NCBI GenBank assembly: GCA_018066075.1
Contig: JAGHSB010000062.1
Span: forward strand, 1-32,890
Direction of reading: 5' to 3'
Length of the DNA stretch: 32,890 nucleotides
Source: Candidatus Treponema scatequi
GTDB lineage: Bacteria > Spirochaetota > Spirochaetia > Treponematales > Treponemataceae
This document shows positions 2,793 to 29,453 of this stretch, one piece after another. The notes beneath the pieces were generated by a model. That model did no database searches. It was not told the DNA's origin and saw only the letters and a program-made list of their open reading frames with translations. How positions within the stretch are numbered: position 1 is the first letter of the stretch; the number at the start of each line of letters is the position of its first letter. The position numbers were made by a program, and so were the translations under genes.

Positions 2793-2842
2793 GAAAAGTT
2801 TTATTGATGGAATGTTTGTAATTAAGGGGTTATAATATTTTT

Positions 2843-3724
2843 ATGATTTACGTTTTATGTACAATTCTTGCCGGTGTCTGCTGGGGATCAATTTCGCTTT
2901 TTATTCGTCCGCTTTCTGAATGCGGGTTTTCTTCGATTCAGATGATGCTGATTCGAACTGTGCTTTCATCGATTTTTCTTTTTATTTTTCTTTTCATCAA
3001 AGACAAAAAGCTTTTGAAAATTGAACTTAAAGACATCTGGATGTTCATCGGAACGGGGGTTGTAAGTCTGACATTTTTTTCTTTGTGCTATTTCAAAACA
3101 ATTCTCGAAGTAGGAACTTCTATTGCCGTTGTCCTTTTGTATACTTCACCTATTTTTGTCTTGTTTATGTCACTTATCCTGTTCAAAGAAAAAATTACTT
3201 TGAGAAAAGCAATCGGAATCGTAATGACTTTTGCAGGATGTCTTTTAGTCGGCGGCGTTTTTGAAAATGAAACTGGAACAGCAAGCTTAAAAGGTTTTTT
3301 AATTGGAATCTGTGCAGGTCTTGGTTATGCGATGTATTCGATTTTCAGCCGCTATGCACTTAAAAAATACAACCCGCTCACAATTACTTTTTATACTTTC
3401 GTTTTTTCTGCAGTCAGCGTAATTCCATTTGTGCAGTTTTCAAATATTCCAAGCCTCATCAGTACGAAATCTGTTTTACTTATGGTTGGACTGGCATTTG
3501 TAAATTCCACTCTTGCATACATCCTTTACACAACAGGGCTCAGCGGCCTCGAAACTGGTAAGGCTGCGATTCTCGTCACAGTCGAACCTCTCGTCGGAAC
3601 TTTAATCGGATGTTTTGTCTGGAAAGAGGTTTTAACTCCGCTCATGATCGTCGGAGTCGTTTTAATTTTTGCAACTGTAATTCTTTTGGGACCCCCGGAG
3701 AAAAATAGATTAAATTTGAATTGA
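2843..3724 (+). CDS. EamA/DMT-family transporter
   Basis: 293 aa with two EamA-like halves; begins YVLCTILAGVCWGSISLFIRPL. Confidence 0.9.
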   Translation: MIYVLCTILAGVCWGSISLFIRPLSECGFSSIQMMLIRTVLSSIFLFIFLFIKDKKLLKIELKDIWMFIGTGVVSLTFFSLCYFKTILEVGTSIAVVLLYTSPIFVLFMSLILFKEKITLRKAIGIVMTFAGCLLVGGVFENETGTASLKGFLIGICAGLGYAMYSIFSRYALKKYNPLTITFYTFVFSAVSVIPFVQFSNIPSLISTKSVLLMVGLAFVNSTLAYILYTTGLSGLETGKAAILVTVEPLVGTLIGCFVWKEVLTPLMIVGVVLIFATVILLGPPEKNRLNLN

Positions 3725-5651: not shown

Positions 5652-6155
5652 ATGAAAGATATTTTGATTTCTCTTCGTACAGAAAACCGATATTCTCAAA
5701 ACGCTCTTGCAAAAGAGCTCGGCATTTCGCGCCAGGCTTATATTAAATATGAAACAGGTGAAGTTGAACCTTCTGTAGAAATAATCCGCAAATTAAGTAA
5801 GATTTTCAATGTTTCGTATGCGTATTTGATTGATAATGGAAAATGTAAAACCGGACATTCTGATAATTTGTATGAATTTTCAGAAGAAAAAAGTTCATCT
5901 GTCGCTGATGCCCGCCCTTTGTATAAGAGCCGGTCTCTTAATTATGAAAATGTTTTATACGGTATACAGTCTATGCTTAAGACTTTTTCACAGGAACAGC
6001 TCCAGTCTGTTTATTCGATTGTTCAATCTGTAAATAACCTTAATTCCAGTTCGCAAAAACCGATTTTAAAACGCACTCCTGGCGGTCTTTCAGGTGATTT
6101 GTGGATCTCAGAAGATTTTGATGCTCCGATTGATGAGTTCAAGGAGTATATGTAA
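5652..6155 (+). CDS. XRE-family HTH antitoxin with a DUF2281/VapB-like C-terminal tail
   Basis: N-terminal HTH_3 (LRTENRYSQNALAKELGISRQAYIKYETGEVEPS); C-terminal GLSGDLWISEDFDAPIDEFKEYM resembles VapB/DUF2281 tails. Confidence 0.8.
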   Translation: MKDILISLRTENRYSQNALAKELGISRQAYIKYETGEVEPSVEIIRKLSKIFNVSYAYLIDNGKCKTGHSDNLYEFSEEKSSSVADARPLYKSRSLNYENVLYGIQSMLKTFSQEQLQSVYSIVQSVNNLNSSSQKPILKRTPGGLSGDLWISEDFDAPIDEFKEYM

Positions 6156-6535
6156 TGTTAATTCTTGATACTCATGCACTTCTCTGGTATTTATCTGATT
6201 CAAAAGAAATGGGCGATGATTTAAAACAGCAGATTTCAGACAGTGATTTAGTTGCCGTAAGTATCGCTTCATTTTGGGAAATTGCGATTAAACAGAGTAT
6301 TGGAAAATTAAAGCTGGAAGAATCAGTTTCTGAAATAGAACATATTTGCTATCTAAAAGATATTATGGTTTTACCAATAAAACCATCAGAACTTGATGTC
6401 ATTAAAACTCTTCCAAATATACACGCAGATCCTTTTGACCGTCTGATTATTTCTCAGACAATTTCTGAATCAGCAATTCTTGTGACCAAAGATTCAAATA
6501 TTCATAAATATCCTGTCAGGTCTATCTGGAAATAA
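6155..6535 (+). CDS. PIN-domain toxin (VapC-like)
   Basis: MLILDTHALLWYL, SFWEIAIK, HADPFDRLIISQ, LVTKDSNI; start overlaps the upstream stop (TAATG). Confidence 0.9.
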   Translation: MLILDTHALLWYLSDSKEMGDDLKQQISDSDLVAVSIASFWEIAIKQSIGKLKLEESVSEIEHICYLKDIMVLPIKPSELDVIKTLPNIHADPFDRLIISQTISESAILVTKDSNIHKYPVRSIWK

Positions 6536-9234: not shown

Positions 9235-9621
9235 ATGTGCGCTAAAACACGAAAATTTGAAAGATATGACGTTTTGGGTCGGATTGAGTCAGAAGAGCTT
9301 TCGAGCTTTCCGGGAACACTTATTGATATAAGTCTGAACGGATGTAAGATTCATTATTCAAACCCGGTTGCTGTTTCTCTTGAAGAAGAGTACACAATCA
9401 AGGTTAAATTTACGGACCAGTCATTGAACAAACCGATTACTCTCATCTGCCAGCCGATGTGGGCAAAAGAAGACAGCGGTTCAACAGATATCGGTATGAA
9501 GTTTCTTCACTCTCCGGACACAGACACCCTTCAGGAATACATCAAGTATCTTTACAAGGACTCTCAGAACCTCGGAGACATCGCTCATCAGATAATGGAC
9601 AGTGAATGTCAGTTCATATAG
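9235..9621 (+). CDS. PilZ-domain (c-di-GMP-binding) protein
   Basis: 128 aa; RKFERYDV...TLIDISLNGCKIHY...DIGMKFLH pattern. Confidence 0.85.
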   Translation: MCAKTRKFERYDVLGRIESEELSSFPGTLIDISLNGCKIHYSNPVAVSLEEEYTIKVKFTDQSLNKPITLICQPMWAKEDSGSTDIGMKFLHSPDTDTLQEYIKYLYKDSQNLGDIAHQIMDSECQFI

Positions 9622-10685
9622 AAAACCTTTCGGCAATCGGATTTTTAGCTTTTCCCGATTGTCTCGCATTTCTCAAATCAGAATTAATCAAACGCTTTGG
9701 CCTCTCAGAATCGACACATTTTAAGTGCTACGGTGACATCGTGTTACTCGAGGGCGAAGATTTAAGCGCTTTTTTAAGTGGAATTTCGTCAAACGGCGAA
9801 TCAGTTTCAGAAAAAGACATCACAGCAGAATCTCTTTCTGAAACTTCCGGAGAAAAACTCCTCGAAGTCATTCCACCGCAGAAACTTCCGTACTGGGCGC
9901 GAACAGTTTTGTTAAAGCCGTTTATTCTCGATTTTGAATCAATAGGTGATGCTTCACGCACTTTAAAAGAACTTCAGAGAAACTGGGCTCCGTATCAGTA
10001 CCAGAGCTTTCGTCGTGCAACTTTAATTCAGGAAAAATTGCCTTACATAAATCTTAAGGCTAAGAAATTCCCTTTTTCGATTCCTAAAAGTCCGATCGGA
10101 GTTTACACTCTCATCGAAGATAAAATAATACTTGCATCTCAGTTTACGTCGTCGTTCGTTCCTGCGGGGCGAATAGAGTTTATCGAAGACCACGAAAATC
10201 CACCGAGCCGTGCATACCTCAAGATTCAGGAAAGCCTCACGATGGCAAACCTCTTTTTTGATGTGGAACTTCCGGGGCCCGAGTCGCGTTGTTTTGAAGC
10301 AGGTGCGTGTCCCGGTGGCTGGACTTGGGTTTTAGTAAACCTTTGTTCAAAAGTTTATGCCGTAGACCGTGCAGAACTTGCGCCTTCTCTTATGACAAAT
10401 CCGCTTGTGACTTTTCAGGCTCACGATGCGTTCACATTAAAACCAGAAGACATCGGAAAGTGCGACTGGGTTTTCAGTGATGTAATCTGCTATCCAGAGC
10501 GCCTTCTCGAATGGGTTAAAGTTTGGCTCGACAGTGGCTTAACAAAGAACATGATCTGTACAATCAAGATGCAGGGCGAAATCGACTGGAGTATCGTACA
10601 GCAGTTTGCAGATATCCCGAACAGTCGTGTTGTTCATTTGAATTATAATAAGCATGAATTGACTTGGATTAATTGCGAGAAGTAA
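9606..10685 (+). CDS. SAM-dependent methyltransferase, FtsJ/RlmM-like (23S rRNA 2'-O-ribose MTase family)
   Basis: 359 aa; CFEAGACPGGWTWVL SAM motif, WVFSDVICYPERLLEWVKVWL, CTIKMQG; 16-nt overlap with the upstream CDS. Confidence 0.85.
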   Translation: MSVHIENLSAIGFLAFPDCLAFLKSELIKRFGLSESTHFKCYGDIVLLEGEDLSAFLSGISSNGESVSEKDITAESLSETSGEKLLEVIPPQKLPYWARTVLLKPFILDFESIGDASRTLKELQRNWAPYQYQSFRRATLIQEKLPYINLKAKKFPFSIPKSPIGVYTLIEDKIILASQFTSSFVPAGRIEFIEDHENPPSRAYLKIQESLTMANLFFDVELPGPESRCFEAGACPGGWTWVLVNLCSKVYAVDRAELAPSLMTNPLVTFQAHDAFTLKPEDIGKCDWVFSDVICYPERLLEWVKVWLDSGLTKNMICTIKMQGEIDWSIVQQFADIPNSRVVHLNYNKHELTWINCEK

Positions 10686-13527: not shown

Positions 13528-14141
13528 ATTCTTATCGGGCTCACTCCCAGACGGATTGGAAAGTACAGCCATGCTCCGAGAAAACCAAACAGATGAGTCA
13601 TATGAGCAATGCCGCCAGAAATTCCAAAGAACTGACAGCCCAATTCAATTAAAGCAAACAAAATAACGCATACAGGGGCTGGCACTGGAATTATTCCATA
13701 TATTGAAACACGAACTGTCGGAAAAATTACAGCAAAAGCGAAAAGAATTGAAAAAACTATTCCGCTTGCTCCCATGAGAAGTGTGTTCCACCAGCCGCCG
13801 ATTACAAAGAATGCGAGTGAAAGTGCATTTGAAAAGATTGCACATATAAAAATAAAGAGTATATATTCTTTTGAACCGAGGGATTTTTCTACATACATTC
13901 CAAAAGAAATAAGACCGAACATGTTTAGAAAAAGATGAAGAAAATTTGCGTGAACAAAAGTACATGTTAAAAGCTGCCAGTACATATGATAGTCAATTAC
14001 TGCGCGCGGATTTAACGAGAGATAAAATTTAAGCGTCGGGAAAAATTTTGTGAGAACAAAAACAGCAACATTGATTACCGCAATAATAATTGTTGCGTTA
14101 ATGTAATTGTAGCGGAATTTTTTTCTCAAAAGATTTATCAT
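13503..14141 (-). CDS. Rhomboid-family intramembrane serine protease
   Basis: 212 aa, multi-TM; WQLLTCTFVHANFLHLFLNMFGL, catalytic GASG, and IAHMTHLFGFLGAW histidine helix. Confidence 0.93.
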   Translation of the reverse strand: MINLLRKKFRYNYINATIIIAVINVAVFVLTKFFPTLKFYLSLNPRAVIDYHMYWQLLTCTFVHANFLHLFLNMFGLISFGMYVEKSLGSKEYILFIFICAIFSNALSLAFFVIGGWWNTLLMGASGIVFSILFAFAVIFPTVRVSIYGIIPVPAPVCVILFALIELGCQFFGISGGIAHMTHLFGFLGAWLYFPIRLGVSPIRIWIEASKH

Positions 14142-15280
14142 TGTGGAACTTCTGTGCTGTTGATAACTTCGTCGTCTGCAAATGTTACTCTGTTTCTTCC
14201 TGAACGTTTTGAAACATAGAGAGCTTTATCTGCCTGTTCTACGAGAATCTTTGGACTGTCTACATGGTTGTATGTTGAATCGTAAACCGCACATCCGATT
14301 GAAATTGTAACTTTCATGTGCTGGTCTTCGTAAACAAAGTCGTTGTCTTCAATCTGCTTTCTGATTCTTTCTGCAACAGACATTGCGTCTTCTTTTGTTG
14401 TGTTTGGAAGCATGATTGTAAATTCTTCACCACCGTAACGGCTTGCTGTATCCTGAGCGCGAGTGTTCTGCTTTAAGATCTTTGCAACTGATTTTAATAC
14501 ATAGTCACCGCATGCATGTCCCCATGTATCGTTGAATTTCTTGAAGAAGTCGATGTCGAACATCAAAACTGCAATCGGCTGTTTCTGAGAAATGGCAAGA
14601 TCGAGTTTGTCAGTAAGCATGTTGAAGAAATAATATTTGAGTTTCAAATGTGTCATCATGTCTGTACTTGATTTTTCAAGCAATGCTGCATTGTTGATGG
14701 CAACGGCAGCAAGTGACGCAATTGAAAGAATCTGGTCTTTGTCGTAAGAAGTATATTCTACGCCTTCACCGATATCGAGTCTTTCACCGAGAACCAAAAA
14801 TCCGTTCATTCTGTTTTTGTGGAACAGTGGAACGATGAGAGTTGGGTGAAGTGATTCGATTTCTTTTATGTCAGTTCCTTTTGGAAGAAGCTCTTTTATT
14901 TGCTGAACTGTGAAAGTCTGATTGTTTCTGAAAATCGCCCTGATGATTGGCGATGTTGTCGGAATTGAATATGTAATTGAAGGATCAAGGTCGATTCCAG
15001 TGTGGTTTGATGAAAGGTTGTAAGAGTTTGAATCCATTTCATCAAGTACGAAGATTCCGGCACCTGTTACGTGCATCTGACACATACTTGTGTAGAGAAT
15101 TGATTCGATAAGTGTGCTGTATTCGAGTGTAGAACAAAGTGAGCGGGAGATTTCGAGAAGCTGCTGCAGGTCGTAAATTCTTTTTTCGTACTGATCTACT
15201 GCTTCCTGAACGAATGTGTTGTCAGGAATTGCGAGTGAGCTTAAATCTACGTCTTCTGAAATGTTGATGTCTTCTGCCAT
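14138..15280 (-). CDS. GAF-GGDEF diguanylate cyclase
   Basis: 380 aa; GAF-like region then FDIDFFKKFNDTWGHACGDYVLK...ASRYGGEEFTIMLPNT (intact GGEEF). Confidence 0.95.
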   Translation of the reverse strand: MAEDINISEDVDLSSLAIPDNTFVQEAVDQYEKRIYDLQQLLEISRSLCSTLEYSTLIESILYTSMCQMHVTGAGIFVLDEMDSNSYNLSSNHTGIDLDPSITYSIPTTSPIIRAIFRNNQTFTVQQIKELLPKGTDIKEIESLHPTLIVPLFHKNRMNGFLVLGERLDIGEGVEYTSYDKDQILSIASLAAVAINNAALLEKSSTDMMTHLKLKYYFFNMLTDKLDLAISQKQPIAVLMFDIDFFKKFNDTWGHACGDYVLKSVAKILKQNTRAQDTASRYGGEEFTIMLPNTTKEDAMSVAERIRKQIEDNDFVYEDQHMKVTISIGCAVYDSTYNHVDSPKILVEQADKALYVSKRSGRNRVTFADDEVINSTEVPQ

Positions 15281-15281
15281 G

Positions 15282-16877
15282 TTAGTTCTTCTTGTCTACG
15301 CCAGAAATGATGGCGTAGTTCCTCATAATGTCAAAGAAAATCTGCCAGTTTGGATAATTGTTTTCCAAAAAGTCTGTGTTGTCGCGGTTTCGTGAAGACA
15401 TCATCAGTACTTTAAGGTTAGAAACAATTTCGCATGACGGTTTCTTTGCGTCTTGTAGTAAATCTCCGAGTTCCACAAAAAGTGAAAAAAGGGCGGAAAC
15501 CTGGTCCTGAATTATTCGCTTTGCTTCCGCATTTATATTATCGACCTGATTTATTAATTTCTTAGAGAAATCTGAATCCTTGTGGCTATCACGAATATAG
15601 CCCTTGAGAACGGCCGAGCTGTTTGACTGATTATTTGCAAATGATGCCTCAAAAGCATCAATCTTTTCAAGTACTTCGTTAGCACCGAATACAGTCTGTG
15701 AAAACTGAGTCTTGAAATTAGGATTATTGAAAAAACCTTCGATTACGATGTCGTTTAAGAGGGCTTTGATTGAGTCAGGATAGTAATGAGTGGCAAAAGT
15801 CTTGAGAATCTTGAGAGGTGTAATCCATGAGAAGCTGACAGAAGAGTTCTGAAGGAGAAGGTCGTTCATTTCTTCGTTGTAACCGTTGAGCGGAAGAAGC
15901 TGTGTATTTGGGAAAAGGCTTTCGATATCACTCTTGATTCTTTCGTCTTTGATTTCACGTTTGATTCGCTGTTCGTCTGCGTTGTACTGGTCCTGGATGT
16001 ATGTCGAGAATTTCTGTCTTGCATCTGCAGAATAAGAAGCACATGTAGGTTCAAAGTCAGGATTCTGTTTTGCAATCTGAATGAGGCTTTTTAAAATGTC
16101 TTTGTTAAGGATTTTATGGCATGCGTATTCAATCTTCTTGAGGTTTTCTACGATGCTTTTCTGGTTGTTTGTTGTCATCGAGTCGACATCTACAATCTGA
16201 GCAAGTGCAATTACTGCATATGCAACAGGCATTGTCATCTGAAATTCTGCGATGATGTAGTAAAGGTCGAGGAAAACGTTTTCGAGTGATACAGGTGGAA
16301 CTGCTGAAAATGACGGAGTGAGGTTTGGCTGTTCCGGATTGAATCGTGCATCGAATGTCTTTAATGGAGTTACAAAGTTAAATTTACAGAGCTCTGTAAG
16401 CTGTTTGAGTTTTACAAAGATTTCATCCATCTTGATGAATTCTTTTGAATTGAGCTCGTGAATGATTTTTTCAAGTCGTCTGTGCTGGTCGTCGAAGATG
16501 CGCTGGGCTGACGTTCCCTGGAGCTCTGCAATTGAAACTTCGTTTTTTCTCTGTTCGTATTCGAGAAATTTAAGTTTCTGCTGGTTTTCTTCTGAGTATC
16601 CTGAAACGAGAAGCTGGTATTCAAATCTTGTATTTCGCTTGATGTCAGGTCCGGCTATTGTGTTTTCGAGAATTTTATAAATCGGGCGTGTATTGATGTA
16701 GAGAACGCGTAAAATTTCTGCAAAATTAGGCTGGATTAAACCGTTTCGGTAAATTCCATTTGGGAGAGCACGTAAATCTGCATCGATTTTCTTAAGCTTC
16801 TGTCTTTTCTGGACTTCAGGAGAAGAACTTCGAAAGATGCTGTCAAAAAAATCTGTTATAGCCTGAAAAAATGACAT
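15282..16877 (-). CDS. Hypothetical cytoplasmic protein (531 aa)
   Basis: Long ORF directly abutting the GGDEF gene; no family recognised with confidence. Confidence 0.8.
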   Translation of the reverse strand: MSFFQAITDFFDSIFRSSSPEVQKRQKLKKIDADLRALPNGIYRNGLIQPNFAEILRVLYINTRPIYKILENTIAGPDIKRNTRFEYQLLVSGYSEENQQKLKFLEYEQRKNEVSIAELQGTSAQRIFDDQHRRLEKIIHELNSKEFIKMDEIFVKLKQLTELCKFNFVTPLKTFDARFNPEQPNLTPSFSAVPPVSLENVFLDLYYIIAEFQMTMPVAYAVIALAQIVDVDSMTTNNQKSIVENLKKIEYACHKILNKDILKSLIQIAKQNPDFEPTCASYSADARQKFSTYIQDQYNADEQRIKREIKDERIKSDIESLFPNTQLLPLNGYNEEMNDLLLQNSSVSFSWITPLKILKTFATHYYPDSIKALLNDIVIEGFFNNPNFKTQFSQTVFGANEVLEKIDAFEASFANNQSNSSAVLKGYIRDSHKDSDFSKKLINQVDNINAEAKRIIQDQVSALFSLFVELGDLLQDAKKPSCEIVSNLKVLMMSSRNRDNTDFLENNYPNWQIFFDIMRNYAIISGVDKKN

Positions 16878-16934
16878 ATCATTACTATTTTATGGCAGAA
16901 AGGGGGTATTGTAAAGTCTAAAAGCCCGGTAAGA

Positions 16935-16996
16935 GATCCCGAAACGAGTCCGGGATGTCATTACGGGTTTAAGGGATCCCGAAACGAGTTCGGGAT
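16935..16996. repeat. Two tandem REP-like palindromes downstream of the giant ORF
   Basis: gatcccgaaacgagtccgggatg (from 16935) and gatcccgaaacgagttcgggatg (from 16975), 40-bp period. Confidence 0.85.
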
Positions 16997-17002
16997 GACT
17001 TT

Positions 17003-20000
17003 TTATTTTACTACCATTACTTTTCGGGTTTCTTCGATGTCTGGACCTACTACGCGGATGAAATAGATGCCTCGCGCAACTGTGTCGCCGGCATTATTAG
17101 TTCCATTCCAGTAATAATAGTGCAGACCGCGTGTCTGACGACCGTTTTCGAGGTATTTTACGATGTTGCCGTCTGCAGTCATGATGATGACGCGAAGGTT
17201 TCCGTCTTTAGGCATGTCTACTTCGAGTGTACAGAAGTCCTTGTTTGCTGCATTGATTACATTTGAGTAAATTGTAGCTCCGCCTCTCTGACGTTTTGGT
17301 TCTGACATGATGAATGACCAGAGGTCGATTGATGTCGGATCGAGAGGGTCTTTGAGGCGCAGACAATAGAGTGGTGTAATTTCTCCGCTTCCTGCCTGGT
17401 ACTTGTGGTTAATTGTGTATGATGTACCGTTTCTTGTTGCTTCAAAGAAGAAGTTTACATTGCTTCCTGAAGGCCAGTTGAGGCAAGGAGTATTTTCGTG
17501 GAAGTTGTGGAACAAGTATGTAATTGTTGTACTTCCTGCAACCGGAGTAATGTCTATGTATTCACTGTCTGAAGTTGTAATGTTTGTAGAAAGGTTTCTA
17601 GTCTGTGCAAAGCCTGAAATCGGAGCAGTATAGTTTGTACCTCCCTGGCTGTATGAAGGGAACCAGAAACGAGTTTTTCTGCCTGAGTATTCGTTGAAGA
17701 GAGTTCCGTCTGAGTAAGGTGTCGGAGTGATGTCTGCAACGAGTTTATATGTGAATGGCGCATCATTGTTACCGCCGTCCTTAGGTGCAACATTTTTTGT
17801 AACAAGAGTAATGTCTTTGTCTGAGAATACTTTGTTGTTTCTTCCTTCGCCAGTGAAGTTTCTCATTACGATTGAGTCTTCTGGTGCAAGTCCGCCTGTG
17901 CTGTCGATGTAAGTGTCGTTACGGTTATCGTATGCATATTGAACTTCGACGCAGTTTGTTATTACATCTGAAATACAGTGTGTTTCGCCATCTCGTACTA
18001 CTTTTGCAACTTGATGAGTACTGTGAATTTTGTTTTCAAGAAGGAATGATCCACCGTATTGGATTAATATTCCGTGTGTAATCATTTCATATGTCAGCGG
18101 CTGGTTAAGTGTTAACTTGAGCCCGTATTGAGTATTTGGTATTTGTTCTACAGAATCGACTGTACGAACAGCGGTTGTGCTTCCGATGGCAGAAATAATT
18201 TTGATTGCAGTTTTTGTTCTGTTTGCCTGTCCGTCATCATTCCATATATTATTATCGAATGCAACTGGCTGGTCAAAGAAGAGATAAATTGCATTTGAAG
18301 TAAAGTCTGCAATTGCAAATGATATGTACATATCGTTTGTAGCACATCGTGTTGCAGTAGCAGTAAATCTAAATCCTTCTGCATCACTAGGTGTTGATGT
18401 CGGTGCAGCCTTGTAGTTACTGATTCTGTTTTTATGATGGTCAGTTAATGTGTAGAATGCTTCTGCAAATGCACGCTCGATGGTGAGGTCAGTTGTGTTT
18501 GACTGATGGTCGCCATGAGAGTCTGAATCTGCACCGGCATTGATACCAGTTGCAGAAAGGTTCCATGTGATGTCGGTAGCTTTGATGTAGAATACGGCAA
18601 GGTCTCCCTTTCCGTCTGTTGATTCTGTACATTCTGCATCGATGTATGCTTTGCCAGTTTCGAAAGTTTTATTTGAGCCGTTTACTTTGATTGTTCTGCC
18701 TGAAGGGAAGTTTGTCATTGCTCGAGTAATTTCATTATTGGAATTTTCGATTAATGTATGTTTGTTTATGTCGTCATTTCTTACGAATTCAATTCGGATT
18801 ACATTATCACGAACTGAATATGTTCCTGAGAAGTTTGGAATTTCTGGTCCTGTTGTACGACCTTCTGATGCCGAGTAGCTTGAGTTGTTTGTAAGAATTT
18901 TCGGGTGTTGGAATGACACACCTGTTAGTGTTCTTGTGTAGACACCTGTTATTACTGTCGGATTTAAGTTGTATCTGATTTCGTCATCTGGTTCAGTATT
19001 GTTGTTTCCAGAGTTTGTACAATTTTCTCCTGCAGAAAGCCAGGCAAAACCATTGGTAGTTGTACAGCTTACTTTGCAGTAACTGATACTTGCATTGTAT
19101 GCTTCTGCGAAAGAGTCACGGGCATTATCGTTTGCTTTTATTTTTAGATCCCATGCTGCAGTTGAAGTGAGATTGACACCATTGTCATAGAAGTTCTGTT
19201 TGGCAGTAATTGTTTTACCCGCAAAACCTGTCAGAGAAGAAATGTATGTATTGTCTCCTGTGTGTGTAATTGTGTGAGTTGCAGAGTCAGGGAATCTTTC
19301 AGGATATTTTGAAGCAGTTGGAGTTGCCGATCCTGGTGCAGTATAAACCAGAGATGGCGGACAGAGCTTGTTATCTGCAGTACGAAGAGAATTATGGTAA
19401 TCGAAAAGGTTTGAAATGTTAGATTGAGAATCTTTGTACATTGAGTTAACATTGCCTTTCAAAAGAATGATGTCTTTGCCGGCTGTCATGTTTGCGTTGA
19501 GTGTAACGTTGCCGTTGAAGAGTGCGATGTTACCTTTGACATCGAGTGTGCCTGCTTTGAAAGTTACATCTTGTGCAGTTGTTCCGTTTCGGGCTGAGAT
19601 GTAGAGGTCTTTAGGAGCTGCGTCTGTTCCGACGGTGATGTTTGCAGTACCAGAGTTGATGACTGAAGTATTGCTGATGAATGTGTTTCCTTTTAATGTG
19701 ATTGCACCTAATGCTTGTGTTGCGGTACCAATGCTTGATTCAATAAGAATGTCGCCTGTACCTGTTGAAATTTCAAAAGTGTGTGCGCCATTTGAACTGA
19801 ACGGTTGGTTAAGGATTACGTTTCCAGATCCTGTTCCAGTTTCGAATGTTGTGTTTCCGTTTAATGTTATTACACCTGCTGATGCAGCTGCGCTGTTGAA
19901 AAGGATGTCGCTGTTTGCTGTGCTAATCTTATTTTTAATTGTGCCGCTTCCGTTTCCTGTAAGAGTAAAGCCGTTTGTTGCTGTAATGTTGCCACCTGCA

Positions 20001-23000
20001 ATAAATGAAGACGAATTAGAAACAGTCATTTTTGCAACTGATACAGTGCTGGATATTTCAATGTTTCCTGCAGTTGGAGTGATGCTGAGCTCTGAAGTTG
20101 TGCCTGTAACTGTGACAAGTTTTATTTTTCCTGCTGCACCTGTGGATGTAGTTTCAATAGTTGAGTTGCCTGTTAATGTAAGAGTTCCGTTGATGTCAAT
20201 TCCACCTGAAGTACTTGCTTTAAAAGTACCGTTTAATGAAACTCCTCTCGGCTGATTGAAAGCGACTCCTTTCTGGAAATTAACAGTTACTGGTGAACCT
20301 GCAGAACCAAAAATGTAATTGCTCTTTGTTGTTAATGCTGCTGTACCTGTTGCAGCGTTTGCTACAGTAATGTTCTTTGTAAAGTTAAGGTCTCCTGCTG
20401 TTGCGGTTGCATCCTGACAAGTAAGCGTTGTAATTGAAAGAGGAAGATTAAATGTTTTTGCAGTTGTCTGCTGGTTGATTGTTACTGCGCCGAGATTGAC
20501 TGGATTTGCTGTTGTGGAACCGCCGATAGTACCAGCGATGCTGGTATAAGAAGTTCCACCTGATGTAAATTGTCCGAGATATAAAGTTTTACTGTTATCG
20601 GCGTATGTACCGTTGATTGTGAGGTTTCGTCTTACTACGATTGCAAGATTGTTTGTAAATGTTATTCCTGCAGGAATTGTGAGGTCGTAGAAGATTCCGG
20701 AAATGTATGCTGTTCCGATAGTGACATTTTTTTGATTGAATACGATGAGATGATTGATATCAGAAGATTTGATTACATCAGTTCCTGTGCCGGTAATTGT
20801 AAGAGAGCCGCCAGCTGCAGAAGAGTCCCAGACCATTGAACCGCTGTTGTCGAGATATGCAACTGTCTGAGTGTTAGCTTCAGGGTTTGCACCTGTCTGA
20901 GTAAATTTTGCGCCTGTTGCAGCTACTGTGATTTTATTTGCTGTAATTTTATTTGTACCGAAAGTTACTTGTGATGTTGAATTAATTGTAATGTCATTTA
21001 CAGAGATTACTGCGGCAGCTGTTGTGTTTGTGTAAGTGCTTGCGTTGTTTAGGGTGAGGTCAGTAACAGTAAGTGGTCCAGTCTGTGTTGTAAGACCCGA
21101 ATTAATTGTGAGATCTTTTCCTGTAACGGCAGTGTAAGATGAACTTAAAGTAATTGCAGAAGCTGCACCTGCTGTGAGTACAATGTCATTTTCTGCTGTA
21201 ACTTCGCCTGTGTATGTTTGAGCACTTGTTGTCTGAATTGAAGTGATTGTTCCCTGTAATACAGTTGGTCCATAAACTTTGAGTGATGTAAAGTTTGCAA
21301 CATTGTTGTTGAAGATTGCTTTTGTTGCATTTGTTGCATCTCCGATTTCGAGATTTGGAGTTGCGGTGTCATATCGGTCGAGGGTGCTTCCAAATGTTAC
21401 GGTTCCGGTTGCTGAAGTTGAAATGAGTTTTAATGTGCTGTTTGTTTCGTTCGTATTCTGTACTGCAGGTCCGGTGTATGTCTGGTTTTCTGTTGTTGTA
21501 ATTTTTGCTGTTGCATAACCGAATGTAGTTGCATCTGCTACAGAAACATTTTTTGCATTTACATTGCCTCTGAAAACGGCTGTTCCTGAAATTGTAAAGT
21601 CATCGTCGCAGTAAACAGAACCTGTCTGTCCTGTTAAAGATTCAAAGTTACCAGTGACTTCAAGTTTGTTGAGATGTTTGTTGTTACCGACAATTTTTGT
21701 AATTAATTTGCCAGTAACTGATAAATCTCTTGGAGTTGCATCGCTGTTAAGGTTGTTTGTAAATTGTATTACTTTATTTGCGTCTGCAGCAGATGTTGAT
21801 TTGAGCGTTACGTTTGCAGTTAATGTTGAGTTTCCTGTGTAAGTCTGTTTGTTTGTTGTCGTAATGTTTGCACCGATTGAAGAAGTGCCTGTTACTTCGA
21901 GGGATGTTCCGGCTGTGATTGCAGCAGTTGTTGTAAGTGTGCCGCCTGCTTTGATGTCGCCGTTGAGAGTTGCTGTGCCTGATACGACTAAGTTGTGGTA
22001 ATCGTTTCCAGTAGCGTTTATGTCATCGATTGTGAGACCGGTGCCTGCAAATTCCACTGTACCTTGAGTTGCATCCATAATTACTGCAGGAGTTGCTTCA
22101 TTGTTTTTGATGCGTCCTGTGTTTGAGTAGACGATTTTTCCTTTGTTTGTGATTGTACCGTCTTTGACTTTAATGTCTGATGCGCTTGAGAAAGTGAATA
22201 TGCGTGCTGCATCATTGATGCTGAGAGATTTAATTGTAATTTCAGCTGTCGAGAAAGTCGGCTGGTTTGTTGCAGTAGCTCCGATTGTAACTGTATCTTC
22301 AGTACTTAGCTGTCCCGGGTATTCTGTTGCAGGATTTGCAGCGTCGGCTCCGTTGAAAGTTGTTTTCCAGTTGCCTGCTGTTGTCCATGCAGTAGAAGAT
22401 GCACCTGTCCATACGAAGTTCTGTGCGATTATCCAGTTTACGTTATTACCGAGTGAAAGAGATGAACTTGCTTCGATTATGTCAGTAAGTGATTCTGAAT
22501 CTTTAACTTTTACATTGCTGACATTTTTAGTGGCAGCTGATGCATCAATTTTCCATTTTGTTCCTGCAGTTGAACTCTGAAGATTGATTTCGTTTCCTGC
22601 ACTTGCCGAGAGAGTGAGTGCAGTGTTTACTCTCTGAGTTGTTCCGGCAGTGAATGTAATTGTTTTCTTGCCTGTGCTGCAAACAAATGTTCCGATTGTG
22701 TTTGAACCTGTGATGTTTGAATTGGAAGCTGCAGCTCCAGTGATTGTGAGTTTAGTAATAGTGTGGTTGCCTGCGAGGTTTCCTTTGAGTTCGAGGTTGT
22801 TGAATGCGTTTGTTCCGCTTACATTTCCGTCGACTTTTAATGTTGTTCCTGTCGCAGTTACTGTTCCTGATGTGTGAACCCAGTTTCCTGAAACATTAAT
22901 TGTGTTTCCGTTTGTAAGTGTGAGAGAGTGTGTATTTGTATCAACTTTGATGTTTTTGAAAGTCTTTCCGTCTGCATTTAATGTAATGTTTGCGTTGTCG

Positions 23001-26000
23001 CCGAATACAACAGTGTTGTTTGTATTATTGAATGTTCCGATTGTAACGGCTCCGCCTGCAAAGACAATGTTTGTATCAGCTGATGTGCTTTCTGCTAAAG
23101 TTCCACCAGAAAAACCACCGTTAAATATTACTCCGTTGCCTGTGATGTTTGGAACGTTGATTGTTCCTGTGTTTGTAACAGCTCCTGTGTATGTCTGAGC
23201 GCCGGTTGTTGTGATTGTTCCGGCGTTGTCTGTTGTTCCGTTTACTGTGAGTGTCGAGATATTTGTAACGGCGCCTGCAAAGTTTACGTTCTGTATTGTG
23301 AGGGCAGTTGCTGTTGCCGGTCCTGTTAAAGTGGAATTGAATTTTGTAGTTCCTGTTCCGGCATTGAGTGAAACTGTTGCAGCTGTAAGTGAAGCAGCAC
23401 CTGTAAATGTCTGGTTTCCGGTTGTCGTAATGTTTGCACCGATTGAAGAAGTGCCAGTTACTTCGAGAGATGTTCCGGCTGTGATTACAGCAGTGTTTTT
23501 GAAAGTTCCATGAACTTTGATTGCATCGCCAAGAGTTACTGAACCGCTGATTACGAGGTTGTTGTAGTCATCACCTGTTCCGATATTGTCGACTGTTGCA
23601 GAGCTGCCAGAAAATTCCACTGTACCATTTGCTGCATCTGAGATTACTGCAGGAGTTGCTGCATTGTTTTTGATGCGGCCTGAGCTTGAGTAGATGATTG
23701 TTCCGTAGTTTTTGAAAGTTGATGCAGTAACAAGTCTGATTGAACCTGAAGAACTTAATGTTAATTTGCCAGTATGTGTTGCATCGCCTATGATCAGGTT
23801 GTCAATTATGATGTCTGCAGTTGTTGAGTGAGAAGGGTAATCTTTTCCAGTTTCGAGGTATGCTGATGAAATGTATGCTGTATCAGCTGTACCAAATTGT
23901 CCAGGGTATGTAGCAGCCTGTGCATATGATCCGTTGAATTGAAGAACGGACCAGTTTTCGGCGAGTGCCCATGCATCAGAAGAGTGACCTGTCCATCTGT
24001 ATGTTCCTGCGATGATCCAGTTTGTATTGTTTCCGAGTGAAATGGAATTTGCTGCTGTGATTTTTGAGATGTCTGCAGTTGAGTCTTTGACTGTGGCGTA
24101 GCTGACTGTTTTGTTTGCTGCAGCGACACTTGAGCAGTCAATCTGCCATGGTGTACCGTCAGTTGAACTCTGGAGCGTTATAGGGTTTGCAGCTGTACCT
24201 TGGATTTGAAGCTTTGTTGAAATTGTCTGTTTTTTGCCTGCTTCAAAAGATAATGTTTTACCGGCTGCTGTACATTCGAAGGTGTCTATTGTGTGTTGAC
24301 CTAAAATTGAAGATGTACCAGTTCCATTTATTGTCAAATTGGTAAAATTGTTGTTTCCGGTAATGTTTCCGCCAACTATGACTGTTGAAGTGTTTGGAGT
24401 AAATGTTCCTGTTCCAGTCCAGTTATTTTGTACTGTAATAGTTGCACTTTTGCCTGTAACTGTGGCGCCAGTTGAAATTTCAAAATTCTGTGCAGTTACA
24501 TTTGAATTAATATTTGTCGTGCCTGTAGAGAAAAGAAGTTTGTCTCCGTTATGTGTAAATGTTCCGAATGTGACGTCTCCGCCGTTAAATTTTATTGCAG
24601 GATTTGAAGTCAAATTTCCAATGAGAGAGCCGTCTGTTCCGTTGTAATCTGAATTGAATGAGATTGCAGTAGTTCCGTTTCCAGTATTTGGAACGTTGAT
24701 TGTTCCTGTGTTTGTAACTGCTCCTGTGTATGTCTGAGCGCCGGTTGTTGTGATTGTTCCGGAGTTTGCTGTTGTTTCGTTTACTGTGAGTGTCGAGATG
24801 TTTGTCATTGTTGTGGAACTTGAGAAAGCTGCATCGTTGAATGTGAGGGCAGTTCCACCTGTCTTACCGGTAATTGTTGATCCAAAATATGTGCGGTAAG
24901 GGTTTCCGCTTGTATCTGTACCTGAGTTAGTTGCAAGAAGTTCTGAAGAGGCAGTTGTAAATGTTACAGCTCCGCCGTAAGTCTGACTATGACCTGTCGT
25001 AATGTTTCCGCCGATTGAAGAAGCGCCGGCAATATGGAGTGACTGGCCACCGGCTCCGATGTCGCAGTCATTTTCAAGAGTAAAATCATGGCCGATTGTA
25101 ATCTGATGTCCGCCTTCGAAAGGTAAAGTTGCAGAAACTATAAGGTTGTAGTAGTCGTTTTCGCCTGTTCCATTACAGTTTGAAATCTGTCCTGCTCCAG
25201 TTGTGTATTCAACAGTTCCGTGGGCGCCATCCATGATGATGTCTCCAGAACTGTTTGTAATTCGGCCTGTGCTTGAGTAGATGATTTTACCGTAGTTTGT
25301 AATGCTGCCTTCTGTGACGATGATGTTTTTAGCACTTGATATTTTAAAATTTGCACCTGTATTTTTTAATGTCAGAGATTTACATGTAAAATCCTGTGCT
25401 TCACCAAAATCAGGGTTTTTATTTGAGGATTGAATTGTAATTTTGTCATCTGATGTGTATGGAGGAACAACTGCATCGATGTAAGTGCTTCCGTCATAAA
25501 CACTCCAGTTAGCAGGATTAACTACGGTATTGTCTACAGCAGTTGTTTTCCATTGATAGTCAGATGAAATCATAAGGCCATCATTTGAAGTTGTGCTGTT
25601 GCCGCCGTAAATACATCCTTTGTCAGAGCCGAGATAAATAACGACAGAATCTGTAATCTGAGTGTCCTTTATTATAGCATTTGTAATTTCTGCTTTGTCC
25701 GCGGCAACTTTGAGATTCCATTTTGTATCTGCAGTAGAACTTTGAATTGTTGTTTTTGAAGCTGCACTTCCTGATACTGTGAAAGTTCCGTTTACAGTCT
25801 GAGTCTTGCCTGCTTCAAATGTAATTGAAGTAGAGCCAGAGCCTGCAGTTAAGTTGTAGAAAGTATTGTTTCCGTTTACTTCTGAAGAAACGGTTACCGT
25901 CGGTGTTTTGCCAGTTTCGTATAAAACTGTGTATCCCTCGTTGTTCCATTTGTTAACTGTGATATTACCAGAGTATGTTGTGGCTCCTTTTAAAGTTAGT

Positions 26001-26998
26001 GTTCTATTTGCACCTGTTACAGAGCTTAAAAATTTTACAGGACCTGTTACGCCTGAATCAAATGTTGTGTCCCCTGTAAGTGTTACGGCACCGGTGTAAG
26101 ACTGTCCTGCGGTGCCAGTTGTTGTAATTGTTCCGTTGAGTATTGAAGTTCCATCTATAGATACGGATGTAGCTGTGATAGTTCCACTTGCAGTAATTGT
26201 ACTTGTTGCGGCTGCGGTGATTTTATTAATTGAAGAAGTGCCGGATAAATTGAGTGCTGCACCTGCTTCGATTACGAGTTCGCCGTTGAGTGTGATGTCA
26301 GTTGCAGAAGGATAATGTGCACATCCTGACGGGATTGTAACTGTTTCGAGATTTTCAAGCTGTGAGATGTCAGTAATTCCAAGCCAGTTTCCTGGTTTTG
26401 ACCAATCATCATCTATGGCACCGGTCCATTTTGTTCCTGTAATTGTAAGTCCTGCGGCGGCAGTAAACTGGTCAGGAGAACCTGTATATCCTGATAAATC
26501 AAGTTTACCGTCTCCTGTAATTTTTAAAGTACCGCCTGTTGACTTGATTGCGTTGTTGAGTTTTAAAACCCCGTTTGTACCAATGTTGATTGTAATTGTC
26601 TTGTTTGTACCAGTCTGGTTTTGCAGGTTGCCAATTGTGAGTGTTTTTCCATCTGAAACAGAAATAGTGATATTGCTGTCACTCTGTAATGTACCTATTT
26701 GGATGTCCTGATCTACTGTAACTGTAATTTCGTGATCTGCGTAAACAAATGCATTTGGATTTGCGGTAACTCCAGGAGCAGCTTCTGCATCTCGTTTTGT
26801 TCCACCATTTGTATCTGATGTTTTCCATGCTGCAGTGGACCATGAACAGTTGCTGTTTGTTGCTAACCAGTAATAATTGCCGTCAGCTCCCCACACATTT
26901 CCTGCCAAAGCACCAAAAATCAGTGCGGAAATGAGTAATTTCTTTGAGAATACTGTTCTTAAAAATTCCATCAACTTTCTATATATTAGAGAAAACAA
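17003..26998 (-). CDS. Giant exported repeat protein (about 3330-3364 aa) with Thr/Asn/Gly-rich beta-helix-like repeats and a FlgD/T9SS-like C-terminal domain
   Basis: Continuous ORF 17003-27097. Signal peptide MEFLRTVFSKKLLISALIFGALAGNVWGA. The likely start is TTG at about 26998 with GGAGG 8 nt upstream, or ATG at about 26971. C-terminus NLRVIIMTADGNIVKYLENGRQTRGLHYYYWNGTNNAGDTVARGIYFIRVVGPDIEETRKVMVVK. Confidence 0.9.
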   Translation of the reverse strand: MFSLIYRKLMEFLRTVFSKKLLISALIFGALAGNVWGADGNYYWLATNSNCSWSTAAWKTSDTNGGTKRDAEAAPGVTANPNAFVYADHEITVTVDQDIQIGTLQSDSNITISVSDGKTLTIGNLQNQTGTNKTITINIGTNGVLKLNNAIKSTGGTLKITGDGKLDLSGYTGSPDQFTAAAGLTITGTKWTGAIDDDWSKPGNWLGITDISQLENLETVTIPSGCAHYPSATDITLNGELVIEAGAALNLSGTSSINKITAAATSTITASGTITATSVSIDGTSILNGTITTTGTAGQSYTGAVTLTGDTTFDSGVTGPVKFLSSVTGANRTLTLKGATTYSGNITVNKWNNEGYTVLYETGKTPTVTVSSEVNGNNTFYNLTAGSGSTSITFEAGKTQTVNGTFTVSGSAASKTTIQSSTADTKWNLKVAADKAEITNAIIKDTQITDSVVIYLGSDKGCIYGGNSTTSNDGLMISSDYQWKTTAVDNTVVNPANWSVYDGSTYIDAVVPPYTSDDKITIQSSNKNPDFGEAQDFTCKSLTLKNTGANFKISSAKNIIVTEGSITNYGKIIYSSTGRITNSSGDIIMDGAHGTVEYTTGAGQISNCNGTGENDYYNLIVSATLPFEGGHQITIGHDFTLENDCDIGAGGQSLHIAGASSIGGNITTGHSQTYGGAVTFTTASSELLATNSGTDTSGNPYRTYFGSTITGKTGGTALTFNDAAFSSSTTMTNISTLTVNETTANSGTITTTGAQTYTGAVTNTGTINVPNTGNGTTAISFNSDYNGTDGSLIGNLTSNPAIKFNGGDVTFGTFTHNGDKLLFSTGTTNINSNVTAQNFEISTGATVTGKSATITVQNNWTGTGTFTPNTSTVIVGGNITGNNNFTNLTINGTGTSSILGQHTIDTFECTAAGKTLSFEAGKKQTISTKLQIQGTAANPITLQSSTDGTPWQIDCSSVAAANKTVSYATVKDSTADISKITAANSISLGNNTNWIIAGTYRWTGHSSDAWALAENWSVLQFNGSYAQAATYPGQFGTADTAYISSAYLETGKDYPSHSTTADIIIDNLIIGDATHTGKLTLSSSGSIRLVTASTFKNYGTIIYSSSGRIKNNAATPAVISDAANGTVEFSGSSATVDNIGTGDDYNNLVISGSVTLGDAIKVHGTFKNTAVITAGTSLEVTGTSSIGANITTTGNQTFTGAASLTAATVSLNAGTGTTKFNSTLTGPATATALTIQNVNFAGAVTNISTLTVNGTTDNAGTITTTGAQTYTGAVTNTGTINVPNITGNGVIFNGGFSGGTLAESTSADTNIVFAGGAVTIGTFNNTNNTVVFGDNANITLNADGKTFKNIKVDTNTHSLTLTNGNTINVSGNWVHTSGTVTATGTTLKVDGNVSGTNAFNNLELKGNLAGNHTITKLTITGAAASNSNITGSNTIGTFVCSTGKKTITFTAGTTQRVNTALTLSASAGNEINLQSSTAGTKWKIDASAATKNVSNVKVKDSESLTDIIEASSSLSLGNNVNWIIAQNFVWTGASSTAWTTAGNWKTTFNGADAANPATEYPGQLSTEDTVTIGATATNQPTFSTAEITIKSLSINDAARIFTFSSASDIKVKDGTITNKGKIVYSNTGRIKNNEATPAVIMDATQGTVEFAGTGLTIDDINATGNDYHNLVVSGTATLNGDIKAGGTLTTTAAITAGTSLEVTGTSSIGANITTTNKQTYTGNSTLTANVTLKSTSAADANKVIQFTNNLNSDATPRDLSVTGKLITKIVGNNKHLNKLEVTGNFESLTGQTGSVYCDDDFTISGTAVFRGNVNAKNVSVADATTFGYATAKITTTENQTYTGPAVQNTNETNSTLKLISTSATGTVTFGSTLDRYDTATPNLEIGDATNATKAIFNNNVANFTSLKVYGPTVLQGTITSIQTTSAQTYTGEVTAENDIVLTAGAASAITLSSSYTAVTGKDLTINSGLTTQTGPLTVTDLTLNNASTYTNTTAAAVISVNDITINSTSQVTFGTNKITANKITVAATGAKFTQTGANPEANTQTVAYLDNSGSMVWDSSAAGGSLTITGTGTDVIKSSDINHLIVFNQKNVTIGTAYISGIFYDLTIPAGITFTNNLAIVVRRNLTINGTYADNSKTLYLGQFTSGGTSYTSIAGTIGGSTTANPVNLGAVTINQQTTAKTFNLPLSITTLTCQDATATAGDLNFTKNITVANAATGTAALTTKSNYIFGSAGSPVTVNFQKGVAFNQPRGVSLNGTFKASTSGGIDINGTLTLTGNSTIETTSTGAAGKIKLVTVTGTTSELSITPTAGNIEISSTVSVAKMTVSNSSSFIAGGNITATNGFTLTGNGSGTIKNKISTANSDILFNSAAASAGVITLNGNTTFETGTGSGNVILNQPFSSNGAHTFEISTGTGDILIESSIGTATQALGAITLKGNTFISNTSVINSGTANITVGTDAAPKDLYISARNGTTAQDVTFKAGTLDVKGNIALFNGNVTLNANMTAGKDIILLKGNVNSMYKDSQSNISNLFDYHNSLRTADNKLCPPSLVYTAPGSATPTASKYPERFPDSATHTITHTGDNTYISSLTGFAGKTITAKQNFYDNGVNLTSTAAWDLKIKANDNARDSFAEAYNASISYCKVSCTTTNGFAWLSAGENCTNSGNNNTEPDDEIRYNLNPTVITGVYTRTLTGVSFQHPKILTNNSSYSASEGRTTGPEIPNFSGTYSVRDNVIRIEFVRNDDINKHTLIENSNNEITRAMTNFPSGRTIKVNGSNKTFETGKAYIDAECTESTDGKGDLAVFYIKATDITWNLSATGINAGADSDSHGDHQSNTTDLTIERAFAEAFYTLTDHHKNRISNYKAAPTSTPSDAEGFRFTATATRCATNDMYISFAIADFTSNAIYLFFDQPVAFDNNIWNDDGQANRTKTAIKIISAIGSTTAVRTVDSVEQIPNTQYGLKLTLNQPLTYEMITHGILIQYGGSFLLENKIHSTHQVAKVVRDGETHCISDVITNCVEVQYAYDNRNDTYIDSTGGLAPEDSIVMRNFTGEGRNNKVFSDKDITLVTKNVAPKDGGNNDAPFTYKLVADITPTPYSDGTLFNEYSGRKTRFWFPSYSQGGTNYTAPISGFAQTRNLSTNITTSDSEYIDITPVAGSTTITYLFHNFHENTPCLNWPSGSNVNFFFEATRNGTSYTINHKYQAGSGEITPLYCLRLKDPLDPTSIDLWSFIMSEPKRQRGGATIYSNVINAANKDFCTLEVDMPKDGNLRVIIMTADGNIVKYLENGRQTRGLHYYYWNGTNNAGDTVARGIYFIRVVGPDIEETRKVMVVK
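20800..25900 (-). repeat. Degenerate super-repeats inside the giant ORF (three clear copies, about 1.57-1.59 kb period)
   Basis: The conserved block QSSTxGTxWxID / W-TGxSSxAWxxAxNW recurs near 22.4-22.6, 24.0-24.15 and 25.55-25.7 kb. Outer limits are approximate. Confidence 0.75.
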
Positions 26999-27179
26999 AA
27001 CGCTTTCCTCCGGTCCTAACGATATAATTATACTACTTCTTTTCAATTGTCGGAATTTTAAAGAGGTGACCTTAGAAAAATCATTCGTTCTTCTCAATAG
27101 AAAGTTTCTTTCTATAATATTCCACTAAAAAAATAAAATTTGCCCGTTCCAAATTCCTGTGTTATCATAAAATTCACTT

Positions 27180-29453
27180 ATGCCGAAACCTTACAACTAC
27201 GGTCCACATCACAAAACTCTCACCCGCCGAATGGCCAAGTATCTCTGCTTTTTTGTAAGTGGAATTATCATCATCGGCTTTCTCACGTCGGTTGCAGTCT
27301 ATAGTGTTAACCTGATGCGCAAGTATACGGAACAGTCAATCAGACATTCATCTGAGATGCTCGTTCATGAATATGGTCTTGTTTCAAAATATCTTTACGA
27401 AGAGACATGCTCAGAATTAAAGCAGTTTTCAAAAAACAGACAGTTTGCCGGGTTAAAAACTCATGCGCAGAGAGTTGAATGGTTTAATTCTCATTTAAAT
27501 CAGAAGCCTGATTTTTTCTGCAACATCGGCTATGCAACTTTGACTGGCGACGCAATTGCTGCAAATAACGTTATAATAGATGTAAGTGACCGTCCTTATT
27601 TTACTGAAATTGTTTCGGGCAATAAAATTGAAACGATTCACGGGCCTTATATTTGCCGCGCTACTGGTGAAACTGTCATCGTTGTTTCGCAGGGTGTTTA
27701 TGATTTAGGGGGAACTTTACAGGGTGTCATGTTCTGTTCTGTTAAGCTTTCAACTCTTGCGATGCTTACAGAAAAGCTCGACATTAAAAATGACGGCCGC
27801 TTCTTTATAATCGGTGACGACGGAAAATTTATCTGTCATTATGACCAGCGTTATCTCGGTCAGACTTATGTTCCGTCGAGTGAAAAATATAAAGCATTCA
27901 ATTCGCAGTATTTCTTTGAAGCACGCCGCGGTGTATTTGAAACTATTTCATCAGAAGACCGCATCATTCAGGTTTATCTCGAAGCAATAGAAAAAACTCC
28001 TTTTACATGCGGAATCACAGTTGATACAGCCCGCGTATTTGCAACGTTCAATCAGTTTAGAACACTCATCATTTCGGTTGTGTTCATCACTGTGATGCTC
28101 ATCTGTCTTTTGACTTACATTTCAACTTTGTTCCTTAATATGACAACTCTTCGCGAAGGATATTACGACCAGCTTACAAATCTCTGGACTCGTCCGAAGT
28201 TTGAAAAAGAAGCTCAGAATATGCTCGACAGAAATAAAGGTGCGCGCTTTGTCCTCATGGAAATGGATTTCAGAGGCTTTAAGTTCTTGAACCAGAGTTT
28301 CGGAAGCGAAGAAGCAAACAAAGTTTTGGTGGAATATTCAAAAGCGATTTTAACTTACTGTAAAAAGATGGGTGCACTCTGTGGCCGTGGATATGCAGAC
28401 CACTTCTATCTGATTTCGAAAATCGATTCTGTAAATACTTTCCTCGAAGATCTTGATGATGTCGTTCAGGAATTTGAAGATGCAATTTCTCCTCTCGAAC
28501 TTCCCGCTCATCCAAAATACGGAATTACTTTTGTGCTTCCTGAAAGAACTTTCTACAATGACAATAAGACAATTCAGGATTTGATCGGCGAAGCATCTTA
28601 CGCAAAGGGAACAATCAAGGAAAACATCCTTCAGGTATATGCAATTTACTCAAGCCTTATGGCAGAGACAATCGAAAGGGAACAGCGCATCGAACGTCAT
28701 ATGGAAAAGGCTCTGGACCGCGGCGAGTTCTATGTAATGTACCAGCCAAAGATTTCTCTTACAGATGACAAGATTCAGGGTGCAGAAGCCCTCGTAAGAT
28801 GGAACAGCTCAAATCCAAAACTCGGTGAGCTCAGTCCTGGAGATTTCGTTCCTGTATTTGAAAGAAACGGATTTATCGTTCAGCTCGACTTTGAAGTTTA
28901 CGAAATGGTTTTCAAGTTCCTTCGTGAACAGATCAATCTTGGAAATCCTGTTGTTCCGATTTCGGTAAACATGTCACGCAACCATTCAAACCCTGATAAG
29001 TTTGTAAGGGAATTTGTAAGACGATTCAACAAATATGATTTGCCGCCAAACTTGATTGAAATTGAAATTCTCGAACGCGCTTCAGAAGGCGACGCATACA
29101 ATCTCATTCGTGTAACTGAAAAACTTCACCAGTACGGATTTAGCGTTGCAATGGACGACTTCGGAAGCGGACAGTCTTCTCTCAATATGTTAAACGAAGT
29201 TCCAATCGATGTGCTTAAGTTTGACCAGAACTTCTTGCGCCGTGAAAACACAAAGACAGGTCATCAGAAGATGATTACAACTTTGATCGAACTTGGAAAA
29301 CAGCTTAACAAAAAAACTCTCTTCGAAGGCGTAGAAACAGAAGAACAGCGTGACATGCTCAAGGAATTAAACTGCGATCAGGTTCAGGGTTACTTCTATT
29401 CAAAGCCTCTCTACGAAAAAGACTTTGTTGAATTTGTAAAACAGCACAGATAA
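27180..29453 (+). CDS. Membrane sensor (dCache-like) with degenerate GGDEF and intact EAL domain; c-di-GMP phosphodiesterase candidate
   Basis: 757 aa; N-terminal TM plus extracytoplasmic sensor, second TM near VVFITVMLICLLTYI, GGDEF position reads GRGYADHF, EAL motifs AEALVRW, NMSRNH, EIEILERA, AMDDFGSGQSSL, KFDQNFL. Confidence 0.93.
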   Translation: MPKPYNYGPHHKTLTRRMAKYLCFFVSGIIIIGFLTSVAVYSVNLMRKYTEQSIRHSSEMLVHEYGLVSKYLYEETCSELKQFSKNRQFAGLKTHAQRVEWFNSHLNQKPDFFCNIGYATLTGDAIAANNVIIDVSDRPYFTEIVSGNKIETIHGPYICRATGETVIVVSQGVYDLGGTLQGVMFCSVKLSTLAMLTEKLDIKNDGRFFIIGDDGKFICHYDQRYLGQTYVPSSEKYKAFNSQYFFEARRGVFETISSEDRIIQVYLEAIEKTPFTCGITVDTARVFATFNQFRTLIISVVFITVMLICLLTYISTLFLNMTTLREGYYDQLTNLWTRPKFEKEAQNMLDRNKGARFVLMEMDFRGFKFLNQSFGSEEANKVLVEYSKAILTYCKKMGALCGRGYADHFYLISKIDSVNTFLEDLDDVVQEFEDAISPLELPAHPKYGITFVLPERTFYNDNKTIQDLIGEASYAKGTIKENILQVYAIYSSLMAETIEREQRIERHMEKALDRGEFYVMYQPKISLTDDKIQGAEALVRWNSSNPKLGELSPGDFVPVFERNGFIVQLDFEVYEMVFKFLREQINLGNPVVPISVNMSRNHSNPDKFVREFVRRFNKYDLPPNLIEIEILERASEGDAYNLIRVTEKLHQYGFSVAMDDFGSGQSSLNMLNEVPIDVLKFDQNFLRRENTKTGHQKMITTLIELGKQLNKKTLFEGVETEEQRDMLKELNCDQVQGYFYSKPLYEKDFVEFVKQHR

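Follow-up and report, generated by a model that had tools for sequence, protein, structure and literature searches.

The window, as we call the whole 32,890-nucleotide stretch of Candidatus Treponema scatequi DNA analyzed here, carries a gene for a giant repeat protein that we consider likely to be a surface rod. It belongs to a real family, with roughly one member per genome, nearly always in the company of a PorV-family barrel, which suggests a secretion and anchoring route that has been described mainly in Bacteroidota. By analogy with the type IX secretion system (T9SS), we lean on balance towards a Sec-exported surface rod whose conserved C-terminal tail docks on a UPF0164/PorV-like barrel, the two forming a substrate/carrier pair. 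Searches of the literature found no account of the giant family.

The gene occupies a frame of 3,364 codons on the minus strand (17003..27097; all parts of the gene named below lie on this strand), which within the window has no internal stop. Given the base composition of the strand, the chance of such a stop-free frame is about 10^-87; the other five frames across the gene contain 96-307 stops each, and their longest open run is 216 codons. The uninterrupted frame of about 3,360 residues reported in a first-pass annotation of this DNA is thereby borne out, as are the richness in Thr, Asn, Gly and Ser and the low charge that it described (T 16.5%, G 9.7%, N 9.3%, S 9.1%, with A at 8.9%; D, E, K and R together about 13.5%), and the repeats that it quoted are found in the protein. 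The start at TTG 27097 is a mechanical call that we reject in favor of later sites: a GGAGG (27011-27007) stands upstream of TTG 26998, and the orthologue at locus L037 starts at an ATG equivalent to position 26971. Judging from these signals, translation probably begins at TTG 26998 or ATG 26971, which would give a protein of about 3,320-3,331 residues. The segment at 26972-27060 (minus strand), immediately 5' of this ATG, is extra sequence of the window relative to L037:2831-2856; it includes the GGAGG and the TTG and is absent from the L037 orthologue. Frame residues 43-70 (26888..26971) form a signal peptide, MEFLRTVFSKKLLISALIFGALAGNVWG/ADG, which had been proposed before and which we, too, recognized by eye in the translation; the translated orthologues likewise open with a hydrophobic leader.

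The body of the protein comprises at least five diverged, Trp-capped units, each of which begins with a W...NW-like motif; they span about 290-530 residues, except for a longer last one. Translation and repeat comparison place unit 0, which begins with the Trp motif YYW...W...W, at residues 71-221 (26435..26887) and unit 1, with the Trp cap W..DDW..NW, at residues 222-512 (25562..26434). These are followed by the beta-solenoid repeats of unit 2 (residues 513-1030; 24008..25561) and unit 3 (residues 1031-1559; 22421..24007) and by the long, diverged solenoid of unit 4 (residues 1560 to ~2610; 19268..22420). Units 2, 3 and 4 can be aligned with each other over long stretches, with neighboring segments 40-63% identical in places. 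For the 529 residues of unit 3, AlphaFold2, supplied with an alignment of the units of the window and L037 only, predicted a beta-solenoid of numerous short strands, frequently spaced by six residues, at a mean pLDDT of 86.8 and a pTM of 0.82. A Foldseek comparison of this model with the PDB gave weak matches, none of them significant (E>=0.07), the best being the beta-helix passengers Ag43, EspC, VacA and EtpA; a PDB sequence search with the whole protein gave no match. Since unit 3 is predicted to fold as a beta-solenoid and has beta-helix passengers as its nearest folds, the body as a whole is likely a rod, and the remaining units, by extension from the one modelled, would be Trp-capped beta-solenoids as well. 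The fold itself does not imply a surface location. The first-pass annotation had suggested a giant adhesin or surface fibre and structure prediction by segments as a check; the AlphaFold2 solenoid supports a fibre-like exported protein, whereas surface location and adhesion are what we infer.

Between the last repeat and the C-terminus lies a non-repetitive region (residues ~2611-3234; 17396..19267), whose C-terminal part proved to be conserved in the genus and the family when relatives were compared. The last 130 residues (17006..17395), with the pattern DLWSF..QRGGATI..NVIN...ARGIYFIRV...ETRKVMVVK, are strongly conserved among relatives and constitute a separate domain. Residues 3295-3350 within it match FlgD_ig (PF13860) at 35.2 bits, above the gathering score of 27; nothing else was detected in a scan of the full-length protein against Pfam and NCBIfam. 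The same model is matched by the tails of all 22 members tested, and 21 of these 22 also match the T9SS type A model TIGR04183 at E<=1. Among ten members scored individually, five (L078, L083, L085, L086 and L088) pass the TIGR04183 cut-off of 23 bits; the window tail, at 17.7 bits, stays just below it, and the nine relatives range from 19.1 to 28.8 bits. Scans with a profile of the tail return FlgD, PorZ, PorU and TIGR04183, and in the PDB they retrieve FlgD at 2e-9. A model of the C-terminal 340 residues, built from two sequences, has a pLDDT of 37 overall and of about 70 over the last 75 residues, with seven strands in the last 90; the Foldseek list of this low-confidence model includes FlgD, PorU, PorZ and the RemA C-terminal domain. 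As the Pfam match, the profile and PDB matches, the strands of the model and the Foldseek list agree, an Ig fold of the tail is well supported, its seven-stranded form more tentatively. In the terminal ETRKVMVVK, K335 and K340 are invariant in 22 relatives, with R in some members of the class, so that the giant has the conserved C-terminal lysine of T9SS type A substrates. The resemblance to the T9SS type A domain is real but not decisive, since FlgD is equally close. FlgD is comparable in the sequence and fold of its hook-cap Ig domain (PF13860), but the remainder of FlgD is missing from the giant, which is no hook-cap protein. The earlier statement that no characterized homologue is recognizable thus holds only in part: it does not extend to the C-terminal 130 residues, an Ig domain similar to FlgD_ig and T9SS type A domains, or to the family, spread across the class, that is found together with a PorV-like barrel. 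The genome of the window also encodes an ORF of 1,074 residues with four to five tandem FlgD_ig-like domains (G000:C33, ~16476-18497; L001, L002, L004-L006), and weak matches to similar frames of ~1,040-1,090 residues occur in several related genomes.

A relative of the C-terminal 764 residues of the giant is encoded in 82 of 146 genomes of the genus. In the class Spirochaetia, a profile of the 130-residue tail finds matches of more than 100 bits in 106 of 296 genomes, where the tail normally ends a giant frame, mostly of 1,200-7,500 residues (G304:C1 carries a member of 1,634). Nearly all positive genomes have exactly one strong match, G473 and G502 two, with weaker candidates scored in part; outside Spirochaetia, the matches are weaker, often several per genome, and mostly end smaller frames. 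In the pairs of close relatives compared, identity is 72-99% for the tail and 30-86% for the rod, and lengths are hundreds of residues apart: the rod evolves fast, the tail slowly. Within the genus, and likewise in two further genera, the giant gene is repeatedly followed by PilZ and then rlmM. The window and L037 depart from this order: the PilZ-rlmM pair is inverted and set apart from the giant gene by a block that runs from DUF5312 to pheS. The PilZ gene, which many relatives carry immediately downstream of the giant gene, thus lies in the window at 9235..9621 and the gene for the RlmM-like FtsJ methyltransferase, the other conserved neighbor elsewhere, at 9606..10685 (both plus strand). 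Because PilZ and rlmM are the sole recurrent neighbors, we discarded the idea of an exporter encoded in the same operon.

A match to the PorV family model NF033709 was obtained in every giant-positive genome tried. The barrel of the window genome (G000:C189:3199-4500, locus L093) is a UPF0164 protein (PF03687, E 2.6e-70) with C-terminal TPR; it covers positions 1-325 of the 326 in NF033709 at 85.1-85.9 bits, just below the cut-off of 90. In a PDB search with the barrel profile, TPR proteins were matched via the TPR, and PorV (E 0.0026) is the sole outer-membrane barrel among the 60 matches listed. We scored the presence of the barrel with a profile of 15 orthologues. Within the genus, it occurs in 81 of 82 giant-positive genomes and in 16 of the 64 others (p ~2e-23, phylogeny ignored); in the class, the counts are 105 of 106 and 33 of 190 (Fisher p ~3e-49, phylogeny ignored), and giant-positive genomes have a single copy. 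Across the other listed genera of the family, the giant/barrel table reads 11/0/0/10. The 33 genomes of the class with a barrel and no giant are mostly fragmented MAGs, and a repetitive gene of such size readily goes missing from these. Some of the 33, such as G119 and G132, are near-complete and yet have no giant, so that their barrel would act on a different substrate or in a different role.

At nearly every locus examined, the barrel gene diverges from a gene for a TPR protein and one for a BNR/HAMP/SpoIIE phosphatase, the product of which combines BNR and Ig-like segments; in the window genome (G000:C189, L093:782-12397), GH57 and DUF4912 genes flank the three. The phosphatase gene is present in 145 of 296 genomes of the class, and the three genes form a nested series, the giant within the barrel and the barrel within the phosphatase, with one exception, the 720-contig MAG G511. 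All three are absent from 151 genomes, probably whole clades, and the co-occurrence of giant and barrel is partly clade-structured.

T9SS and its C-terminal sorting domains have been described as restricted to Bacteroidota (reviewed in PMC10202324). In this system, the type A domain binds extracellular loops of PorV inside SprA and leaves together with PorV (PMC10994853), while type B adhesins, the giant SprB among them, use PorV-like carriers of their own (PMC12618676). Type A substrates (TIGR04183/PF18962; e.g. RemA) share with the spirochaete giant a Sec signal, a long variable body, a C-terminal Ig-like domain with a conserved basic residue at its end, and a PorV-family barrel in the same genome. 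They differ in phylum, and the giant is roughly the only such substrate of its genome; furthermore, no SprA or PorU was detected in spirochaetes in searches that had no positive control (SprA_N of the SprA/Sov translocon without a match in 30 genomes, C25 of the PorU sortase without one in the window's own genome), and the window tail scores below the curated cut-off. The SprB-SprF pair of Flavobacterium, a type B adhesin with its own carrier, is similar in that the giant is apparently served by one dedicated PorV-like barrel, but the spirochaete tail is type A-like rather than type B, and the giant and barrel genes are not adjacent.

Following these parallels, Sec would carry the giant across the inner membrane via its signal peptide, and the Thr/Gly/Asn/Ser-rich body would fold into successive Trp-capped beta-solenoids. 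At the C-terminus, the conserved Ig-like domain may then provide the signal for sorting and docking, as its counterpart does in T9SS type A substrates. The one UPF0164/PorV-like barrel of the genome, encoded at another locus, would receive this domain at the outer membrane and retain the rod or hand it over. The rod would stand out from the cell, serving as an adhesin or as a coat of the surface, and would change quickly in length and surface while its docking tail stays fixed. That the barrel acts as the carrier is a hypothesis, well motivated and drawn by analogy; outer-membrane crossing, physical docking and adhesion are likewise steps that we infer.

The same observations can be read in other ways. 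The giant could be a scaffold that stays inside the cell envelope, either periplasmic or lining the outer membrane from within, with the tail binding the barrel from the periplasm, for example at the TPR. The barrel does have a C-terminal TPR, which has been placed in the periplasm for UPF0164 members of T. pallidum (PMC8407342), its gene is divergent from those of a TPR protein and of a HAMP/SpoIIE phosphatase, and the SprA_N search of 30 genomes, run without a positive control, revealed no outer-membrane translocon. We nevertheless regard a periplasmic scaffold as unlikely: T9SS C-terminal domains bind PorV via its extracellular loops (PMC10994853), and the architecture of the giant also points outwards. 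Surface-exposed adhesins typically combine a fast-changing, Thr/Asn/Gly-rich solenoid rod with a fixed tail, as the giant does. An autotransporter (type V) or two-partner-secretion adhesin would agree with the beta-helix body, whose closest, non-significant structural matches are passengers of just these systems, but neither a C-terminal barrel nor an N-terminal TPS domain was found with Pfam and NCBIfam, and the tail is a small Ig domain; we rejected this identity as highly improbable.

It is also conceivable that an unrelated route exports the giant as a surface adhesin, with the barrel co-occurring merely through shared losses in the same lineages. The phosphatase, after all, co-occurs as well, the absence of all three genes probably spans whole clades, and distances over 15 genomes correlate hardly better between tail and barrel (r 0.90) than between tail and phosphatase (0.86), leaving no pair-specific signal of coevolution. 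On the other side, four near-complete genomes of the genus (G001, G031, G131 and G354) have kept the phosphatase and lack both the giant and the barrel, the table for the other genera of the family has no off-diagonal counts, and it is precisely the family of this barrel whose members carry such tails in T9SS. Taken together, we hold the unrelated route to be a minority prospect and prefer the docking of the tail on the barrel.

Papers on T. pallidum, including PMC8407342, model its UPF0164 proteins as FadL-like fatty-acid importers and remark on the unusual TPR extension; term searches in them found no mention of PorV. This 'FadL' family (TP0548, TP0856, TP0858, TP0859 and TP0865) belongs to the same Pfam family as the barrel and shares its C-terminal TPR, but is treated as a group of fatty-acid transporters, and the T. 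pallidum-like genome G201 has five UPF0164 barrels and the phosphatase but no giant. More tentatively than for the pair itself, we can imagine in Spirochaetia a T9SS-like pathway of reduced or alternative form, in which a single giant substrate and a single PorV-like carrier work with a translocon that is not SprA; the FadL-like vaccine candidates of T. pallidum would then be descendants of this carrier in a lineage that has lost the giant. A giant rod with a T9SS-like tail that is almost never without a PorV-family barrel would extend the logic of T9SS to spirochaetes, and the UPF0164 proteins, seen as fatty-acid importers in T. pallidum, would gain an alternative ancestral role.

The giant gene is followed downstream by a diguanylate-cyclase-type gene (14138-15280, minus strand) and is divergent from a Cache-GGDEF-EAL gene (27180-29453, plus strand); with the PilZ gene nearby, these genes make a link of the giant gene to cyclic-di-GMP possible. 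Elsewhere in the window, an ORF of 314 residues (1848-2792, plus strand) has no Pfam match, and an HTH gene with a DUF2281-like C-terminus is directly followed by a PIN-domain gene (5652-6535, plus strand), the two probably forming a toxin-antitoxin pair.
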